Shown here: positions 1-5,038 of the stretch, one piece after another
How the letters are laid out: every line of letters starts with the position of its first letter
Position numbering within the stretch: the stretch's first letter is position 1
The notes under the pieces: model-generated
Seen by the model: only the letters and a program-made list of their open reading frames with translations
The model's database searches: none
Told to the model about the DNA's origin: nothing
Translations under genes and position numbers: made by a program
Assembly (NCBI GenBank): GCA_018375265.1
Contig: JAHADO010000118.1
Span: forward strand, 1 to 5,038
Reading direction: 5' to 3'
DNA: 5,038 bases
Origin: Campylobacter concisus
Lineage (GTDB): Bacteria > Campylobacterota > Campylobacteria > Campylobacterales > Campylobacteraceae

Positions 1-784
1 AAGCCATCTTATTTAAAATTTGCTTCTTATCTATCTTTTGCATAAGCTCTAAGACATCTATGCCTCTTTTTTCTTTGAAATTTAAAAGCTCTCTTGCATA
101 GAGAAATTTCTGATCCTTGTTTATATCATAGGTCTCATACTTTTTCTTAACCTGCATAGGTTTAAATTTCTTCTCACTTTGCTCTTTGGCAAAATTTGCA
201 TCGTATTCTTGTTCTTCTTTGTGTAGCTTAGCTAGAAATTCTTTATGCTCTTTTGTAGTTTTTTCTACGTCTTCTCTATAAAGCTTTTTAAACTCTTCTA
301 TGCTTAGATCAGCTCGGCTAAGTAGAGCAGAGCCTTTTTTACTTGACATCGCATCATCAGGCAGTGATCGCATAAAATTCTCTAGCTCCGTTTCTTCTTC
401 TTTTGTGCCAAGACCAACCATCTTTCCAGATATTGTTGGTTTGCCATCCACTGAGTAGGTAAGTAGCCAGTCCATGTGTCCTTGCAAGACACTAATCTCA
501 AGCTCTTCCATGTTTTCTGGATATTTTGCTATCAGCGCACGTCTTTGCTCGATAGTAAAATCATATTTCTTAGAAAGCATAGTATCTATCTCGTTTATAG
601 CATCCGTTATCCAGCCCTCTTTACTTTCATCTATATCAATAAATTTTGGCAATACTTCTGCAAGTGGTTTGTGCATTAGTTTATCTATTAGAGCCTTTTC
701 TTGCTCCTTTGACATTTTTGCATTTTCTTTTTGGATAGTGTTATCTTGTATCGGTGTATTGCTAAGTCCGTTTATGCTTATCAT
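1..784 (-). CDS. Hypothetical protein, second gene of cassette B (C-terminus outside window)
   Basis: I do not recognise this protein. The frame stays open from an ATG at 784 to the window edge, giving 261 whole codons; the C-terminus is missing. The start is supported by AAAGGAG (790-796 region) about 5 nt upstream. The N-terminus reads MISINGLSNT, an Asn/Ser/Thr-rich opening that resembles the MLNGLNNNTY start of the large protein at 1609-2793. No signal peptide or membrane segment is visible. Residues 25-105 look mostly helical (KALIDKLMHKPLAEVL, then a DIDESKEGW acidic turn near 50-58 and TIEQRRALIAKYPENMEEL near 77-95). Residues 160-250 are highly charged and Lys/Glu-rich, suggesting long helices or coiled coil. 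It follows the small exported-protein gene at 842-1345 by 57 bp with a hairpin between, so it is probably co-transcribed. By analogy with the other cassette it may be a flagellar-apparatus-exported protein, but this is inference. Confidence 0.85.
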   Translation of the reverse strand, partial: MISINGLSNTPIQDNTIQKENAKMSKEQEKALIDKLMHKPLAEVLPKFIDIDESKEGWITDAINEIDTMLSKKYDFTIEQRRALIAKYPENMEELEISVLQGHMDWLLTYSVDGKPTISGKMVGLGTKEEETELENFMRSLPDDAMSSKKGSALLSRADLSIEEFKKLYREDVEKTTKEHKEFLAKLHKEEQEYDANFAKEQSEKKFKPMQVKKKYETYDINKDQKFLYARELLNFKEKRGIDVLELMQKIDKKQILNKMA

Positions 785-808
785 TTCAGCTCCTTTGAAA
801 ATATGGGA

Positions 809-832
809 GCCTACAAGTTTAAATTTGTAGGC
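809..832 (-). terminator. Intergenic hairpin between the two cassette B genes (weak terminator or processing stem)
   Basis: GCCTACAA (809-816) and TTGTAGGC (825-832) form a perfect 8-bp stem, which can extend inward through A/T pairs and a G.U. It lies 9 nt after the stop of the 842-1345 gene and ends about 13 nt before the AGGAG of the next gene. The minus-strand transcript continues TCCCATATTTTC after the stem, so there is no immediate U-tract. It is therefore a poor intrinsic terminator and more likely an attenuator, an RNA-stability stem or a processing site. It occupies the same place as the true terminator in cassette A. Confidence 0.55.
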
Positions 833-841
833 CACTTAGGG

Positions 842-1345
842 TTATTGCCAACCTCCTAATCTACTTTCCATAGTTGTTTTAAAATTGTCTCTTAACTGCC
901 TAACAACAGTATTGTTATTTAAGACAAAACTACTAGAAATTTTGTGAAATTCATCAGTATTTTTATCATAAGCAGCCGCACTGTAGGTAAAGAGAGGATA
1001 TCTACCATATCGACTATATTTTATCTCTCGTTTGACCGTATATGCAAGGTAATACCCTGGAAGATTGTATGAGCCGAGACCTTGTGCTATTTGCATTTTT
1101 ATATATTCGCTGTCTTTACCTTTTTGAAATTCAGCGTATACTCCTACCTCCTTAGAGGATATATTTTTGATATCACTAAAATTTAATCCTCCTTTAATCT
1201 TGCCCATGTCTGTGACATCTAGTTTTTTAACATTACTAGAGATGTCACTCAAAGCACCAGCGGTAACCTTTGCCAGAAAATCTTCAGCATTAGCACCTGC
1301 AACTAAAATTCCGCCAAGTATGGCTATTTTAAGAACTTTAAACAT
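842..1345 (-). CDS. Small exported protein with Sec-type signal peptide and internal double-glycine motif (cassette B)
   Basis: A 167-residue protein of no function I can name. ATG at 1345 has an excellent AGGAGG about 5 nt upstream. Residues 1-20 form a classic signal peptide: FKVLK basic start, hydrophobic IAILGGILVAG, and an ANA cleavage site before Glu21. Residues 42-53 read LDVTDMGKIKGG, very like the double-glycine leader of class II bacteriocins (consensus LSxxELxxIxGG). The remaining 114 residues are Tyr/Ser-rich and lack cysteine; PLFTYSAAAYD (117-127) matches PQYSYSVAAFK in the paralogue at 2849-3409. Leader residues 21-53 align with that paralogue at 13 of 33 positions without gaps. 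The protein is probably periplasmic, surface or secreted. A Sec signal followed by a GG motif is topologically odd, because the known GG-cleaving C39 peptidases act in the cytosol. The gene has its own promoter and a possible PerR-like operator. It is followed by a hairpin and the gene at 1-784. Confidence 0.88.
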   Translation of the reverse strand: MFKVLKIAILGGILVAGANAEDFLAKVTAGALSDISSNVKKLDVTDMGKIKGGLNFSDIKNISSKEVGVYAEFQKGKDSEYIKMQIAQGLGSYNLPGYYLAYTVKREIKYSRYGRYPLFTYSAAAYDKNTDEFHKISSSFVLNNNTVVRQLRDNFKTTMESRLGGWQ

Positions 1346-1366
1346 AACTTCCTCCTGTAAAAAGTT

Positions 1367-1381
1367 TTATAATAATTATAG
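1367..1381. promoter_or_regulatory. PerR-box-like palindrome over the -10 of the cassette B promoter
   Basis: The 15 bases TTATAATAATTATAG match the Bacillus subtilis PerR box consensus (TTATAATnATTATAA) at every specified position except the last. The 13-bp core TATAAT-A-ATTATA (1368-1380) is a perfect palindrome around its central base. Its right arm is the -10 box of the 842-1345 gene, so a bound Fur-family repressor would block the promoter. Campylobacter encodes PerR and Fur, but the local AT bias makes chance matches easier. Binding is inferred from sequence only. Confidence 0.4.
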
Positions 1382-1383
1382 CA
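1375..1383 (-). promoter_or_regulatory. Extended -10 promoter for the 842-1345 gene
   Basis: On the minus strand this reads TGCTATAAT, a consensus TATAAT with the TGn extension typical of Campylobacter vegetative promoters, where -35 is poorly conserved. A start site about 7 nt downstream would leave a leader of roughly 23 nt ending in AGGAGG and ATG at 1345. The -35 region is covered by a second palindrome (1396-1411). Confidence 0.65.
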
Positions 1384-1395
1384 CTAATTTGGTTT

Positions 1396-1411
1396 TAATT
1401 GATATCAATTA
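1396..1411. promoter_or_regulatory. 16-bp perfect palindrome in the -35 region of the cassette B promoter
   Basis: TAATTGATATCAATTA is a perfect 16-bp palindrome. With the adjoining bases the minus strand reads GATAATAATTGATATCAAT, which recalls the GATAAT/ATTATC hexamers of Fur boxes. Its centre is about 29-30 bp from the centre of the PerR-like palindrome, close to three helical turns. It is a candidate operator, but the binding protein is unknown. Confidence 0.4.
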
Positions 1412-1547
1412 TTATCTTTTAAAACTTACCTATGAAAATCTTACTTTTCAATACAACTTTTAACAAATGCCTATTTTGCAACATATCTACATATATAAAA
1501 CGATAGTCTTAAGCTTTCTCTTGCTTAAAGTAGAAAAATCACTTAAG

Positions 1548-1555
1548 AAATCGGC
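1548..1555 (-). promoter_or_regulatory. Possible sigma-28 (FliA) -10-like element
   Basis: The minus strand reads GCCGATTT, close to the FliA -10 (GCCGATAA in E. coli; CGATAT-like in Campylobacter). The upstream -35 (around TATTTAAA, 11 nt away) matches poorly. If real, it would give a roughly 195-nt leader for the 842-1345 gene and link cassette B to late flagellar expression. The evidence is weak. Confidence 0.2.
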
Positions 1556-1608
1556 AAAAATTTGTTTTTAAATAGAGAAAACTTAAAAAAGATAACTAAT
1601 TTCTACTA

Positions 1609-2793
1609 CTACGCCTTTATATCAACATCTCTTTTTATACCAAGCATATCTACTAGGTATTTTCCAGCTGGGTTTTCATTTAGCTCTTTTACTAAATTTA
1701 AAGGTGGCATGCTAAATTTTAAAAAGCTATCCATAAAGTCCTTGCTCTTTTTACCATCTTTATCTATCTCGCCAAAGAGTAGCTTTAGCATTTTTAGATT
1801 ATGCTCCATCATCTTTTTAAATGAGAGTTCGTCTTCTTCATCTGAATACTTACCGACAAACCCAGTCGTTAGATCTACATAGACAAGGTCTCTTTTATAC
1901 TTAACATACTCTTGCATATATGCAGGCATACCAGCTAGATCAGAGTCGCTTGCCTTGTTGAAATTTGCTCCAAATTTCATCTCACCCATAAGCTCAAATA
2001 GTTCAAATGCTCTACTAAATTCTTTGCTATCTACGCTCTTATCAAAGCCTTGTTTCTTTCCAAAAACGGTGGTTTCACCTTCTTTGACGTCAAGGTTGCT
2101 ATTTATGACGGCTGCTAAAAGGCCACCTTTGGTTATAGAGCCATCTTTATTTGTATATCTTTCGCCGTGCGGATCGATAAAAACACCACTTCCCACACTC
2201 TCCTTGCCGCCATTGTTGTTGTTAAAGATATCTGTTGTTGGCTTTAGTGGCTGCCTGCCATCTCCACCGCTAAAGCTTGGGTTGAAAAAGAGCGTGCTTA
2301 TCATCTGTTTGTTTGACTCTTTGTAGTTAAAGCTAGAAGCAGCTGCATCGAAGTCGTAAATAGAATTATGAATTTTTGTTACTTGCATGCTTTGGCGGTT
2401 ATAAGAAAAGCCTTGAGGGAAATTTCTTATCTCATCTAAGCTAAAGCTATCCTTTGAGTTTAGTATATCTTCGCCAACTACTTGTGAGAGTATTTTATAA
2501 GCATTGCCAGCAGTCTTTGCTATATCTATGCTTTTAAAGGTGCGACTAAAAAATGAAGTCCCCTCTGCAACATTTACTAACGACTCCAGCGTGCTTGAGT
2601 GAATTTTATAATCACTTGGTATGCCAGCTTGCTTGTTAAACTCATCTGTAAAGTAGCCATCCTTATCTACCTTGTAGCCTAAAACTTCTGAGCTGGTTTG
2701 GTTGGTGGCCGTGCCAAGAGTTACTACTTGTTTGGAATTTATGCTTGCTTTATAACTTTGTGTATATGTGTTGTTGTTAAGTCCATTTAACAT
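1609..2793 (-). CDS. Probable Cj0814-family flagellar-dependent secreted protein
   Basis: A 394-residue cytosolic-looking protein with no signal peptide or membrane segment. Residues 39-65 (LGYKVDKDGYFTDEF, then AGIPSDYKIH) match my memory of the Campylobacter Cj0814-type family, whose members are exported through the flagellar type III apparatus; no search was run. The first 35 residues are Asn/Ser/Thr/Gln-rich and probably disordered, as expected for such an export signal. KDG turns recur at residues 44-46 (VDKDGYFT), 216-218 (TNKDGSIT) and 345-347 (IDKDGKKS), vaguely EF-hand-like. A Gly/Asn-rich linker lies near 174-206, and helical charged segments near 255-280 and 318-342. I chose ATG at 2793 because AAGGA (2801-2805) sits 7 nt upstream; an in-frame TTG at 2799 is only 1 nt from it. 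A strong terminator sits just upstream, after the small exported-protein gene at 2849-3409, so expression probably depends on read-through. Gene presence is near certain; the family call is moderate. Confidence 0.85.
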   Translation of the reverse strand: MLNGLNNNTYTQSYKASINSKQVVTLGTATNQTSSEVLGYKVDKDGYFTDEFNKQAGIPSDYKIHSSTLESLVNVAEGTSFFSRTFKSIDIAKTAGNAYKILSQVVGEDILNSKDSFSLDEIRNFPQGFSYNRQSMQVTKIHNSIYDFDAAASSFNYKESNKQMISTLFFNPSFSGGDGRQPLKPTTDIFNNNNGGKESVGSGVFIDPHGERYTNKDGSITKGGLLAAVINSNLDVKEGETTVFGKKQGFDKSVDSKEFSRAFELFELMGEMKFGANFNKASDSDLAGMPAYMQEYVKYKRDLVYVDLTTGFVGKYSDEEDELSFKKMMEHNLKMLKLLFGEIDKDGKKSKDFMDSFLKFSMPPLNLVKELNENPAGKYLVDMLGIKRDVDIKA

Positions 2794-2805
2794 TTTCAAA
2801 TCCTT

Positions 2806-2838
2806 CTTAAAAATAAAACCCTAGCTTGAGCTAGGGTT
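2806..2838 (-). terminator. Strong intrinsic terminator between the two cassette A genes
   Basis: AACCCTAGCT (2817-2826) and AGCTAGGGTT (2829-2838) form a perfect inverted repeat around TG. As RNA, an 8-bp GC-containing stem with a short loop is likely. On the minus strand it is followed directly by TTTTATTTTT (2816-2807). It starts 10 nt after the stop at 2849. Its U-tract runs up against the AAGGA of the downstream gene, leaving almost no room for a separate promoter after it. Partial termination would give high upstream and low downstream expression. Confidence 0.85.
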
Positions 2839-2848
2839 GCAATCTCAA

Positions 2849-3409
2849 TTAAAAGCCAAGGCTCATAGTTAGTTGATTTCTAACAGCTTTTGAATTTATT
2901 AGTTCGTTTGCTATATACGGTTTATTTGTTATGGTTTTTAGTCTCATAAGTTGGCCATTTACATTTTTAAAGGCTGCAACAGAGTAAGAATATTGTGGAA
3001 TGCTGCCAAAACCATAAGGCTTATTCACCTTTGTTGCTACAACGCCCAAGTATTCACCATTGCTATAATTAACTTGACTCATAACTTCTTGAAAATTGCT
3101 TTGAGCATAATAACTTTTTGTATAACAATTTGTTGAATTTAACCCACACGATACTTTATTTGTTTTTTCGTATTCATCAAATTGTACTAATGCCACTGCT
3201 TGAGCAATATTTTGTGAAGTTTTTGGTAACGCTTGTATGCTTATGCTATACCCACCATTAACTTGCTCTAGATCCAAGCTATTTAGTGTTTTCACACCAA
3301 CTGAATTATTATCTGCGGCCCCATTTGTAGCTTTAGAAAGCAAATCATTTGCAAAGGCACCACTTAACATTAAAGCACTAGCTAGTGCAACTTTAAATAG
3401 CTTTTCCAT
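2849..3409 (-). CDS. Small exported protein with Sec-type signal peptide and internal double-glycine motif (cassette A)
   Basis: A 186-residue paralogue of the 842-1345 product; I cannot name its function. ATG at 3409 has AAGGAG about 6 nt upstream. Residues 1-20 are a clear signal peptide (MEKLFK, hydrophobic VALASALMLSG, AFA cleavage site before Asn21). Residues 42-53 read LNSLDLEQVNGG, a bacteriocin-leader-like motif ending at the same residue as in the paralogue. The pre-GG segment starts NDLLSKATNGA, against EDFLAKVTAGA in the other. The 133-residue remainder has two cysteines seven apart (Cys88 and Cys95 in CGLNSTNC), suited to a small disulfide loop, and a Tyr-rich PQYSYSVAAF (138-147) shared with the paralogue. 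It is likely periplasmic, surface-exposed or secreted. The gene lies 39 bp after the RHH gene but seems to have its own promoter in that gap, and is followed by a strong terminator and then the probable flagellar-secreted protein gene. Confidence 0.88.
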   Translation of the reverse strand: MEKLFKVALASALMLSGAFANDLLSKATNGAADNNSVGVKTLNSLDLEQVNGGYSISIQALPKTSQNIAQAVALVQFDEYEKTNKVSCGLNSTNCYTKSYYAQSNFQEVMSQVNYSNGEYLGVVATKVNKPYGFGSIPQYSYSVAAFKNVNGQLMRLKTITNKPYIANELINSKAVRNQLTMSLGF

Positions 3410-3436
3410 TTAAACTCCTTGTTAAGAAATTGTTTT

Positions 3437-3445
3437 ATTTTAGCA
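3437..3445 (-). promoter_or_regulatory. Extended -10 promoter for cassette A
   Basis: On the minus strand this reads TGCTAAAAT, an extended -10 with one change from TATAAT, just after the RHH stop codon (3449). The first five bases and the general layout match the cassette B promoter (TGCTATAAT). A start about 7 nt downstream would give a leader of about 20 nt. It suggests cassette A is not solely dependent on the ParA/RHH operon. Confidence 0.5.
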
Positions 3446-3448
3446 TAT

Positions 3449-3721
3449 TTATTGCTTTTTACTTTTAAAATCTTCCATTTTTTCTCTGATGATCGATCTT
3501 AGATATTGGGTTCTATTTGTTCTGGTTATATGTCCCATTTCGTCTAAAAAATCCAGCTCTTCACTAGACAAAAACATTGTCGTTCTTTTGTCGGCAGGAT
3601 TGGCACTTTTTGGTCTGCCGCCAGTTTTTTTAGTTTCTTGCTTTTCGTCTTGTTCTTGAAAGCTTGCTGTGCTTAGTTCGTTTAGCTCTATCTCTGTAAG
3701 ATCTAAATTCAATTTTGCCAT
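3449..3721 (-). CDS. Ribbon-helix-helix (CopG/Arc-like) DNA-binding protein, partner of ParA
   Basis: A 90-residue protein with an acidic, flexible N-terminus (1-33), a basic TGGRPKSAN stretch (33-41) and a C-terminal ribbon-helix-helix domain. RTTMFLS (46-52) is the strand that would enter the DNA major groove. SEELDFLDEMG (53-63) is the first helix, and RTQYLRSIIREKMEDF (70-85) the second. GGRPK recalls an AT-hook core and could help grip AT-rich DNA. Small RHH proteins paired with short ParA ATPases act as centromere-binding adaptors and autorepressors in type Ib partition systems. The start ATG overlaps the parA stop by one base (TAATG), so the two are translationally coupled. The likely target is the palindrome at 4298-4330. 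It could instead be a plain transcriptional regulator of the island. Confidence 0.85.
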   Translation of the reverse strand: MAKLNLDLTEIELNELSTASFQEQDEKQETKKTGGRPKSANPADKRTTMFLSSEELDFLDEMGHITRTNRTQYLRSIIREKMEDFKSKKQ

Positions 3722-4284
3722 TATTTATTATCCTTTATGTAATTAACGACTTTTTGATACATATCTATAAATGACTGATATTGTCTTTTTGAGAGATTGC
3801 TTTCATTGTATAGCTCTAAAAAACTTAGTCCAGTTGTCATAGCATTTTCAAATATTTTAGAGCTTTTTAAAATAAGAAATTTTGTGCAAGCTATGTTAGC
3901 AACTTTTATCATTGCTACTGTTTCTTCTAGCTCTTTTTGAGAAGAGACATCTGTTATAAGGCCTAGTGTTTTGCAGCCAAGAGGTTTGATCTGTGATATG
4001 GTGCTTGCTGCTCTTTTAATGGAATTTGGATTAGAAGTAATGGGAACAATAACAATACTACAATGTTTTAGTATCTCTAGCACTCCAGCCGAGGCAAATC
4101 CTCCAAAGTCATACATAGTATTTGGTTCAAAAATGCACTTATCTAATATTTTGCCATCTTTGTAAAACTGTGGCACCACAGAGTCATCATTGCTTTGCCA
4201 TTTTAGTCCAAGATCTTTTGCCAAACTAAAACTAAGTGGCGTCTTTCCAACCCCACCCTTTAGTTGTAAAACTGCTAAATTCAT
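3721..4284 (-). CDS. ParA/Soj-like P-loop ATPase (short, type Ib-like)
   Basis: A 187-residue deviant-Walker ATPase of the ParA/MinD family, which uses ATP-driven dimerisation and DNA binding to segregate plasmids or position cargo. The Walker A region KGGVGKT (residues 9-15) carries the signature first lysine Lys9 plus Lys14 and Thr15. The next residue, normally Thr or Ser, is Pro16, which is unusual. The Walker B region is probably TMYDFGG with Asp59, followed by a strand IVIVPITSNP (77-86) typical of the family. There is no N-terminal helix-turn-helix domain, and the length fits small type Ib ParAs. I placed the start at 4284 (MNLAVLQLKGG) because AAAAGGA sits about 6 nt upstream and the Walker A then falls at the usual position; a longer frame from 4320 would begin inside the palindrome. 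The partner RHH gene follows at once. A chromosomal cargo-positioning role is the alternative to plasmid partition. Confidence 0.88.
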   Translation of the reverse strand: MNLAVLQLKGGVGKTPLSFSLAKDLGLKWQSNDDSVVPQFYKDGKILDKCIFEPNTMYDFGGFASAGVLEILKHCSIVIVPITSNPNSIKRAASTISQIKPLGCKTLGLITDVSSQKELEETVAMIKVANIACTKFLILKSSKIFENAMTTGLSFLELYNESNLSKRQYQSFIDMYQKVVNYIKDNK

Positions 4285-4297
4285 ATTAATCCTTTTT

Positions 4298-4330
4298 ATC
4301 ATATAGTATGTTAATAACATATTATATGAT
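4298..4330. promoter_or_regulatory. 33-bp near-perfect palindrome, candidate operator or parS of the ParA/RHH operon
   Basis: Two 16-base arms flank a central A at 4314 and match at 15 of 16 positions, the only mismatch being G4306. The outer arms are ATCATATA (4298-4305) and TATATGAT (4323-4330); the inner arms are ATGTTA (4308-4313) and TAACAT (4315-4320). It ends beside the parA ribosome-binding site and its right arm contains the TATAAT box, so a bound dimer would block transcription. The expected transcription start falls near the palindrome centre, so most transcripts would not carry a full hairpin, which favours a DNA site over an RNA one. The RHH protein is the obvious candidate ligand, but this is inference. 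Confidence 0.65.
4321..4326 (-). promoter_or_regulatory. Probable -10 box of the ParA/RHH operon
   Basis: The minus strand reads TATAAT, about 37 nt upstream of the chosen parA start. No convincing -35 is visible, as is usual in Campylobacter. In such AT-rich DNA other -10-like boxes exist, for example TATACT at 4393-4398. The overlap with the palindrome supports this one. Confidence 0.5.
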
Positions 4331-4458
4331 AATTATGTTAATATAATATAAAACATATATACAATATATATCATATATTAAATACAATAAAATAGTATAA
4401 AGAACACTTGAACTAAAAGATTTTGTACGGAAAGATTTTTATAAATAATAAAAAAATA
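4331..4458. other. Extremely AT-rich non-coding region upstream of ParA, with repeated short motifs
   Basis: Bases 4321-4400 contain only 7 G or C in 80. ATCATATA recurs at 4370-4377 in addition to both palindrome arms, and TATGTTAATA occurs at 4307-4316 and again at 4334-4343. AAAGATTTT is repeated at 4416-4424 and 4431-4439. The pattern would fit a centromere-like or multi-site operator region for the ParA/RHH pair, although low complexity alone could produce it. After the stop at 4459 the minus strand has a U-rich run (TATTTTTTTATT) but only an A/T hairpin, so termination of the upstream gene is uncertain. No gene is visible here. Confidence 0.5.
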
Positions 4459-5038
4459 CTATTTTATTTTGCCTAAAGCATAAATTTGATTTAGCTCGTT
4501 AAAAGCTAAATTTATATTATCCTCGCTTGGCTTTATGGTGCTATTTTTTAGTAGCTCAAGCACTAAATTTTTAAAATTTTCTCTATCTTCTGCCAGCTTT
4601 TTAAGAGTAGCCACATCGCTCAAGCTTTTGTTTCTATGATCCTTCGTCTCGGCAGCGATGAAAGCGTTATTTAGCAAGACTTCAGGCTTTAGCGCAGTCT
4701 CTCCACCTTCTAGGATCGCAGGGCTTTCAGACTTTAGAAAACTAACAAACAAAGCCTCTTTTTTGTAACCAGACTCCGTTTTATAGTAAGAGACGTCTGG
4801 ATTAAAGCCACCACTATTTTCCTGCTCTAAATTTGCAAAATTTAGCTTTTGAAGGTTTGTTTTTATGCCTAGTTTTGATAGATCTTCGCTTAAATTTGAT
4901 GCAAGCTTCATTTCATCTTGGCTACTAAAGATATTTGTAACGACCTCGTTTTTGCGACTATTTAAAAAATCAATATTTGATCTATCGCTCAAATCTGCGT
5001 TAAAATCGATGCCTTTCATCCCTTGCGAGATGTAGCCT
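4459..5038 (-). CDS. Hypothetical protein, C-terminal part (N-terminus outside window)
   Basis: I do not recognise this protein. The frame is open to the right edge of the window; six codons (GYISQG) precede the first ATG at 5019. No ribosome-binding site is convincing there, so the visible 192 residues are most likely the C-terminal part of a longer protein. It is soluble-looking, rich in Asn, Lys, Glu and Ser, without cysteine or membrane segment. Features are MKGIDFNADLSDRSN at the visible start, GGFNPDVSYYKTESGYKKEA in the middle, and charged helices such as SLSDVATLKKLAEDRENF and KPSEDNINLAFNELNQIY towards the end. Its style resembles the large protein at 1609-2793, so another flagellar-exported protein is possible, but I see no motif that proves it. 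It shares its direction with the ParA operon but is separated from it by 174 bp of AT-rich DNA. Confidence 0.8.
   Translation of the reverse strand, partial: GYISQGMKGIDFNADLSDRSNIDFLNSRKNEVVTNIFSSQDEMKLASNLSEDLSKLGIKTNLQKLNFANLEQENSGGFNPDVSYYKTESGYKKEALFVSFLKSESPAILEGGETALKPEVLLNNAFIAAETKDHRNKSLSDVATLKKLAEDRENFKNLVLELLKNSTIKPSEDNINLAFNELNQIYALGKIK

Follow-up and report, generated by a model that had tools for sequence, protein, structure and literature searches.

What is the role of a small exported protein whose gene is followed, twice over and in the same direction, by a gene for a large protein without a signal peptide? The question is raised by a 5,038-nt stretch of Campylobacter concisus DNA (assembly GCA_018375265.1, contig JAHADO010000118.1, positions 1-5,038), the whole of which is here called the window. 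A sequence-only reading had described two same-strand units in it, each consisting of a small exported protein with a double-glycine (GG) motif, a gap with a hairpin and a large leaderless protein, and had proposed that they represent a functional unit. Every feature of these units is present, on the minus strand. The large gene of the first unit is complete as described; that of the second has no stop codon inside the window and runs off its edge, and a third large gene is also there. In a wider sample, Campylobacter and Helicobacter were found to hold many copies of this two-gene cassette, the products of which vary in step. The interpretation as a functional unit is strongly supported by the pairing of the two genes in many loci together with the covariation of the partners; small-protein homologues are not mostly partnerless, nor is the pairing limited to this one locus.

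An iterated profile covering the signal and leader segments of the small proteins was run over 65 loci, comprising the window, five plasmid loci and 59 genome neighbourhoods. The neighbourhoods surround at least 77 matches in 24 of 398 genomes of the order; these figures are minimum counts, and a few of the copies duplicate one another. The profile recovered 95 small proteins. For the pairing count, a non-overlapping gene set from the 65 loci was used and genes close to an end were set aside. The next same-strand gene after a small gene (n = 81) was of the Cj0814 type in 35 cases, another gene in 43 and neither in 3, against 6, 467 and 238, respectively, after other genes (n = 711). The Cj0814 type refers to family NF046095, to which the large protein of the first unit belongs (247.4 bits, curated cut-off 80). 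Any same-strand gene lay directly downstream of 78 of the 81 small genes and of 473 of the 711 other genes. A direct listing under a different rule (n = 95) gave 35 Cj0814-type genes, 47 other genes, one C39 peptidase gene, six cases without a downstream gene and six contig ends. Because a downstream gene is common anyway in dense genomes, the weight for the partners outside the Cj0814 type lies on covariation.

The two small genes of the window (small gene 1, positions 2849-3409, 186 amino acids (aa); small gene 2, positions 842-1345, 167 aa; both minus strand) encode paralogous proteins, as the sequence-only reading held (BLASTP E = 1e-10), and both carry the GG at residues 52-53. Their identity is 38% over residues 1-53 and 22% after the GG. 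As read from the sequence, the GG closes a double-glycine leader of the type used by C39 peptidases, placed behind a signal peptide, a point that had been overlooked. In small gene 1 the signal peptide spans approximately 3350-3409, the leader approximately 3251-3349 with the GG at 3251-3256, and the core 2852-3250; in small gene 2 the corresponding segments are approximately 1286-1345, approximately 1187-1285 with the GG at 1187-1192, and 845-1186. The signal peptide ends were placed by eye. The leader ends in GG in 93 of the 95 small proteins. Among 91 usable leaders, position -12 is Leu in 96%, -8 is Glu in 84%, -7 is Met in 75% and -4 is hydrophobic in 93%, almost always Val or Ile. The resulting pattern, L-x3-E-M-x2-V/I-x-GG, fits the classical double-glycine leader consensus, LSxxELxxIxGG. 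By a simple rule, 79 of the 95 small proteins are signal-peptide-like, compared to 103 of 451 background genes.

An AlphaFold2 model of small protein 1 (mean predicted local distance difference test score (pLDDT) 74.7, 46 aligned sequences) is confident only from residue 51, about the GG: the pLDDT is below 50 in each ten-residue block up to residue 50 and between 73 and 94 per block afterwards, where strands and helices form a predicted compact domain. Since confidence in the model starts near the GG and the preceding part shows leader features, the layout is read as signal peptide, leader, GG and folded cargo. Cleavage after the GG is predicted, in line with the model boundary at residue 51. 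The cores of the 95 small proteins measure 84-160 aa in 71 cases and less than 60 aa in 19; three have 63, 77 and 372 aa, and two are cut by contig ends. Dedicated bacteriocin models did not recognize the family at their cut-offs. Only 2 of 11 members were matched by bacteriocin_sig (TIGR01847) at E values up to 1, the one on the C. concisus plasmid pCCON16 reaching 15.5 bits against a cut-off of 15.7, and JUQZ_fam_ocin gave 17.2 bits against 40.

Covariation was analyzed with 75 of the 95 small genes, after those with an unclear GG, a core shorter than 30 aa or no partner within 210 bases had been dropped. Comparisons were made between genomes or plasmids, and cores with a similarity of at least 0.3 were counted as alike. 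Like cores had related partner bodies in 107 of 129 comparisons. Related partners were found in 10 of 232 comparisons of unlike cores with like leaders and in 41 of 2099 in which cores and leaders were both unlike. Within one genome, leaders had a median similarity of 0.68, cores of 0.09 and partners of 0.05. The rank correlation (rho) between core and partner was 0.245 (highest of 300 permutations, 0.126), and core and leader were not correlated (0.045). In the clearest single case, loci L104 and L111, the similarity was 0.74 for the core, 0.36 for the leader and 0.49 for the partner. It is the part behind the GG that is matched to the partner, and the cassette thereby shows the matched variable domains of polymorphic toxin-immunity pairs.

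Large gene 1 (positions 1609-2793, minus strand, 394 aa) encodes a protein without a signal peptide that starts with MLNGL at 2793; a TTG two codons further upstream is a possible start too. In its structure model, residues 1-33 are disordered, approximately 34-250 are mostly confident and the part past that is poor. Large gene 2 (positions 1-784, minus strand, 261 aa visible, stop beyond the window) starts with MISINGL at 784, is 79% identical to its counterpart on pCCON16 and has no NF046095 match up to E = 1. The two large proteins, described as visibly alike at the N terminus only, show no significant similarity over their whole length, with E 0.11 for the best segment found by BLASTP. The N-terminal Asn-Gly-Leu (NGL) motif, present in both, turned out to be a local feature and not a general trait: NGL or NGF occurs within the first 20 residues of 7 of 75 partners; one of these cases is probably due to a misplaced start, and two of the seven duplicate each other. 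Large protein 2 of the window was left out of this count, as its scripted start lay too far upstream. An Asn/Ser-rich N terminus is the more general trait, with a median Asn plus Ser fraction over residues 2-31 of 0.33 in Cj0814-type partners (n = 34), 0.27 in other partners (n = 41) and 0.13 in background genes (n = 451). By the simple rule, none of the 75 partners is signal-peptide-like (background, 103 of 451). Published work bears on one relative. In the available portion of that study, CJM1_0791/CJJ81176_0835 disappears from the supernatant or drops strongly there when flgG is mutated in either of two strains, and a CJM1_0791 mutant shows lower adherence and invasion (PMC5223770).

Several further observations concern the large proteins. 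By eye, large protein 2 (KPMQ...TYD) shares a C-terminal KPIQ/KPMQ...TY region with Cj0814-type proteins of loci L099, L104 and L116, and the two large families therefore seem to be linked by domain shuffling. Some partners from the same genome have identical last 12 residues and diverged bodies, as in genome G353, where proteins of 231 and 262 aa have a body similarity of 0.44. A C-terminal [DNTSKE][ILVMT]x[AVIL] motif is found in 25 of 75 partners and in 9 of 471 background frames; the Escherichia coli FliK C terminus is GVDIFA, and the Campylobacterales FliK-domain frames seen end otherwise. Two proteins of 723 and 733 aa (P0121 and P0122) look like two fused Cj0814-type proteins.

The cassette is accompanied by a module of a stand-alone C39 peptidase and an outer-membrane-type protein, which the sequence-only reading also overlooked. 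Of the 398 genomes sampled, 24 have the small protein, 56 have C39, 35 have the outer-membrane-type protein and 50 have Cj0814-type proteins, the last above the family cut-off in 37. According to a hand tally, C39 is present in 22 of the 24 small-protein genomes compared to 34 of the 374 others, the outer-membrane-type protein in 22 of 24 compared to 13 of 374, and Cj0814-type proteins in 17 of 24 compared to 33 of 374. On pCCON16, the C39 gene (positions 10540-11133, 197 aa, Pfam E 5e-18, with a signal peptide recognized by eye) overlaps the gene for the outer-membrane-type protein (positions 11118-11972, 284 aa). The C39 proteins of the group start with a signal peptide, as judged by eye, and Q38, C44, H127 and D143 are kept in all seven aligned. 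The Q/K, C, H and D signatures are intact in all 28 C39 reading frames of at least 150 aa (34 C39 hits in all). The outer-membrane-type protein has an N-terminal signal peptide; its last residues are Trp-Lys-Lys-Phe in five of the six sequences aligned and Trp-Gln-Lys-Phe in that of pCCON16. It is presumably an outer-membrane barrel, because a signal peptide and a C terminus of this type are expected of barrels; no credible match was found for it in NCBIfam or among PDB sequences. No C39 was seen in the window, which is a mere 5 kb. No feature called ABC transporter is among the 23 annotated on pCCON16, most of which are labelled hypothetical, and a C39-ABC fusion was not found there.

On plasmids, C39 relatives were found in 81 records, 47 of them from Campylobacter, and Cj0814-type genes in 46 records, which are from Campylobacter without exception. 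A 134-kb Campylobacter jejuni plasmid carries four tandem units adjoining C39 and outer-membrane-type genes, and a 7.1-kb C. volucris plasmid a single unit together with both genes. Units are also present in three Helicobacter records (L022, L029, L034). On the C. coli C8C3 chromosome (L016), five Cj0814-type genes stand in tandem next to a short C39 remnant, and none of them has a small partner. More distant C39/outer-membrane-type gene pairs were seen in other genomes of the order (L146, L154, L155, also L147-L149), where no Cj0814-type gene was seen; three of these loci have one short gene nearby with a weak leader match, in which G-K or G-E shortly before a Trp replaces the GG. A contig labelled as an uncultured Bacilli metagenome-assembled genome (L021), probably a mis-binned Campylobacterales contig, has two complete copies of the cassette, C39 and outer-membrane-type genes included.

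The gaps between small and large genes are 55 nt (gap 1, positions 2794-2848) and 57 nt (gap 2, positions 785-841) long and each contains a predicted hairpin, in agreement with the sequence-only reading. In gap 1 the hairpin (2817-2838, 9-bp stem) is followed by a T-rich stretch and the ribosome binding site of large gene 1; in gap 2 the hairpin (809-832) is followed by the ribosome binding site of large gene 2. The folding energies of -17.3 and -12.6 kcal/mol were reached by 1 and 13 of 500 mononucleotide shuffles, respectively. In 22 of the 35 gaps with z < -1.5, base pairing in the predicted fold involves the ribosome binding site of the large gene. In the window, the predicted fold of gap 1 leaves this site unpaired, and that of gap 2 pairs three bases of the site with those at the start of the gap. 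A recurring hairpin type, TTTGCTTAYCCTTT...AAAGGATAAGC, is present in the gaps of L101, L103, L105, L114, L118, L124 and L001. It hides the ribosome binding site just ahead of the large gene in different genomes and looks like a translation switch.

We interpret these results as a polymorphic cassette in which the large protein is a secreted effector and the small protein its exported protector, both leaving the cytoplasm separately and meeting as a matched pair; this is a tentative interpretation, held with somewhat less than even confidence. The roles of effector and immunity protein are those we infer for the two partners. With more doubt, we consider it possible that the cassette is a paired weapon that uses two routes, with Sec, a periplasmic C39 and a dedicated outer-membrane protein on one side and the flagellum on the other, and variable domains that recognize each other outside the cytoplasm. 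The small protein, with the Sec-type signal peptide seen in its sequence, would cross the inner membrane; the stand-alone periplasmic C39 would cut it after the GG that ends the leader; and the core, once released, would be let through or retained by the outer-membrane-type protein encoded beside the peptidase. The cut and the outer-membrane step are proposed because of the gene association, the intact catalytic signatures and the model boundary. The large protein, with its disordered Asn/Ser-rich N terminus and no signal peptide, may leave via the flagellar type III machinery, as published for one relative. The variable core of the small protein would then fit the variable body of its own covarying partner. 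The hairpin in the gap may damp expression of the large gene relative to the small gene, and an order of immunity first and effector second would suit a weapon that acts within the cell envelope or on it. That each partner is exported and the two meet outside the cytoplasm is favoured because both bear apparent addresses and matched variable parts. Of the earlier suggestion that an exported partner is matched to a flagellum-exported effector, the matching is upheld by the covariation, and the flagellar step is plausible given the one published relative and the sequence composition. A chaperone role for the small protein, which had been offered as another option, is not favoured, since a protein with a signal peptide should exit the cytoplasm.

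A number of results weigh against this interpretation. For the small gene the pairing is close to obligatory; the Cj0814-type family is not bound to it in this way, because 38 of 49 usable cases stand alone, which had been overlooked: among the genome-contig loci found through the large family, a Cj0814-type gene had a small gene upstream in 11 cases and not in 38, with 11 too close to an edge. Of 26 small genes in these large-family loci, 13 were followed by a Cj0814-type gene, 12 were not and one was at an edge. Like cores with unlike leaders had related partners in just 19 of 32 comparisons. Leader and partner also correlate (rho 0.343, top permutation 0.159), and common descent therefore accounts for part of the core-partner signal. 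By Pfam cut-offs, no toxin domain was detected in the window proteins or in the 10 of 41 other partners scanned, the best sub-threshold match being IMS (E 0.0014), and neither the small nor the large protein model had a fold match. Two genomes with small genes (G014 and G383) yielded no C39, and two others (G330 and G370) no outer-membrane-type protein. The hairpin is weak or absent in many units, with z < -2 against dinucleotide shuffles in 31 of the 55 gaps of at least 15 nt, a set that does not include gap 2 of the window, for which the script used an upstream start. With regard to the flagellar step, the locus numbers and the name given by NCBIfam are our grounds for taking CJM1_0791 to be Cj0814. 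The step has weak support from a FliK domain, present in all 57 genomes with a small or Cj0814-type protein and in 70 of 80 others (taken in list order from the 341 other sample genomes); this association is confounded by kinship and genome completeness. In the available portion of their paper, the authors caution that the flagellum effect may be indirect and call the protein a putative periplasmic lipoprotein (PMC5223770). Finally, the 19 of 95 cores shorter than 60 aa are bacteriocin-like.

These short cores also favour a reading with reversed roles, in which the small GG protein would be a bacteriocin-like toxin that Sec exports and C39 trims before its release, and the large protein its matched cytoplasmic immunity protein. 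The double-glycine leader and C39 suit such a toxin, and models of class II bacteriocins and of ComC gave weak matches of the leader type. A downstream same-strand gene is missing for just 3 of 81 small genes, and Cj0814-type genes often stand alone, like orphan immunity genes. Typical class II bacteriocins are, however, smaller than 84-160 aa, the size of 71 of the 95 cores, and partners that are mostly two to five times the size of the core would be odd immunity proteins. The Asn/Ser-rich N termini of the large proteins moreover resemble a transport address, and one relative is reported in the supernatant in the available portion of PMC5223770. We regard reversed roles as unlikely, at about one chance to three against.

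Slightly less probable still is a surface recognition pair, in which a small core displayed at the cell surface by way of the outer-membrane-type protein would capture its own flagellum-secreted large partner and provide strain-specific adhesion or self-recognition without killing. Arrays of unlike pairs on plasmids, as found here, are more typical of conflict systems, and the core is predicted to be a compact domain rather than a fibre. On the other hand, both partners seem to be exported and covary, the combination of C39 and an outer-membrane-type protein resembles amyloid and pilus export systems, and adherence and invasion are lower in the mutant of the one relative studied (PMC5223770, available portion). 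That the genes are adjacent merely through mobile elements, with no joint function, is disfavoured and very improbable. Many units are plasmid-borne and shared ancestry makes up part of the core-partner correlation, but pairing with matched content recurs across the order-wide sample, and core and partner stay together where leaders differ, for example between L104 and L111.

On the minus strand of the window, part of a Cj0814-type gene is followed by a ParA-like gene with a small gene, after which come the two units described above. The partial Cj0814-type gene, at positions 4459-5037, is the C-terminal part of the third large gene (NF046095, E 1.8e-13, 50.9 bits) and is open at the window edge; it scores under the 80-bit cut-off, which a truncated protein would be expected to do, and it is probably the end of another unit. 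The ParA-like gene with its small downstream gene (positions 3449-4320, minus strand) shows 78-80% DNA identity among Campylobacter plasmids; its counterpart on pCCON16 is annotated as spore coat protein CotH, a label that looks wrong. Putative promoters were picked out by eye, without a promoter scan: TGCTAAAAT with ribosome binding site AAGGAG ahead of unit 1 (positions 3410-3446, minus strand) and TGCTATAAT with ribosome binding site AGGAGG ahead of unit 2 (positions 1346-1400, minus strand). The window is C. concisus plasmid-type DNA, since bases 1432-4391 match pCCON16 at 90.6% identity and bases 1-1433 match a different part of it at 81%. Five small-large units were counted on pCCON16, with small and large genes at 1408-1827 and 1881-3023, 4010-4567 and 4621-5820, 8190-8657 and 7024-8130, 9186-9686 and 9736-10530, and 12828-13463 and 12027-12800, respectively.

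The cassette shares parts with several known systems. Large protein 1 belongs to the Cj0814 family, which the fragment at 4459-5037 matches below the cut-off and large protein 2 does not match. The NF046095 model is silent on the small partner, and 47 of the 82 listed large or other partners fall outside our own Cj0814 profile. A C39 peptidase with a signal peptide beside an outer-membrane-type protein is likewise found in the Fap system of Pseudomonas (FapD, a C39 with a Sec signal, and the pore FapF). C39_FapD matches each of the seven C39 proteins scanned and ranks first for that of pCCON16, which is, however, far under the cut-off of the FapD equivalog NF058616 (66.1 against 330 bits). FapD is a periplasmic C39 peptidase required for amyloid export whose natural target is described as unclear in the available portion of PMC5557850, whereas the likely C39 substrates of the cassette have GG leaders. 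The leader pattern of the small proteins is the same as that of class II bacteriocins and microcins; in the cassette it follows a Sec-type signal peptide instead, the C39 is not fused to an ABC transporter, and most cores are in the 84-160 aa range. With polymorphic toxin-immunity systems the cassette shares matched variable domains behind conserved address segments and arrays of unlike units, but no toxin domain was recognized in the proteins scanned, and its products are apparently exported by different machines. Csep1 of C. concisus, a Cys-rich Sel1-like helical solenoid according to the available portion of PMC12904459, differs from the small-protein model, which has strands and helices behind a leader and GG; the two are set apart by that description. 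Among the matches listed in open-licence PubMed Central, no paper on the unit was found.

With this cassette, a C39 family goes together with dozens of signal-peptide proteins bearing double-glycine leaders, and the question of cleavage becomes testable. The flagellum-dependent Cj0814 proteins of C. jejuni gain a genetic context, as many of their relatives have a matched exported partner. If the two-route system is true, periplasmic C39 peptidases would acquire a substrate class with canonical GG leaders, and Campylobacter and Helicobacter would use the flagellum as a means of delivery in contact or kin-directed competition. If the reading as weapon and protector is true, common bacteria of the gut and mouth would have in the cassette a diversifying system for competition that is carried on plasmids.

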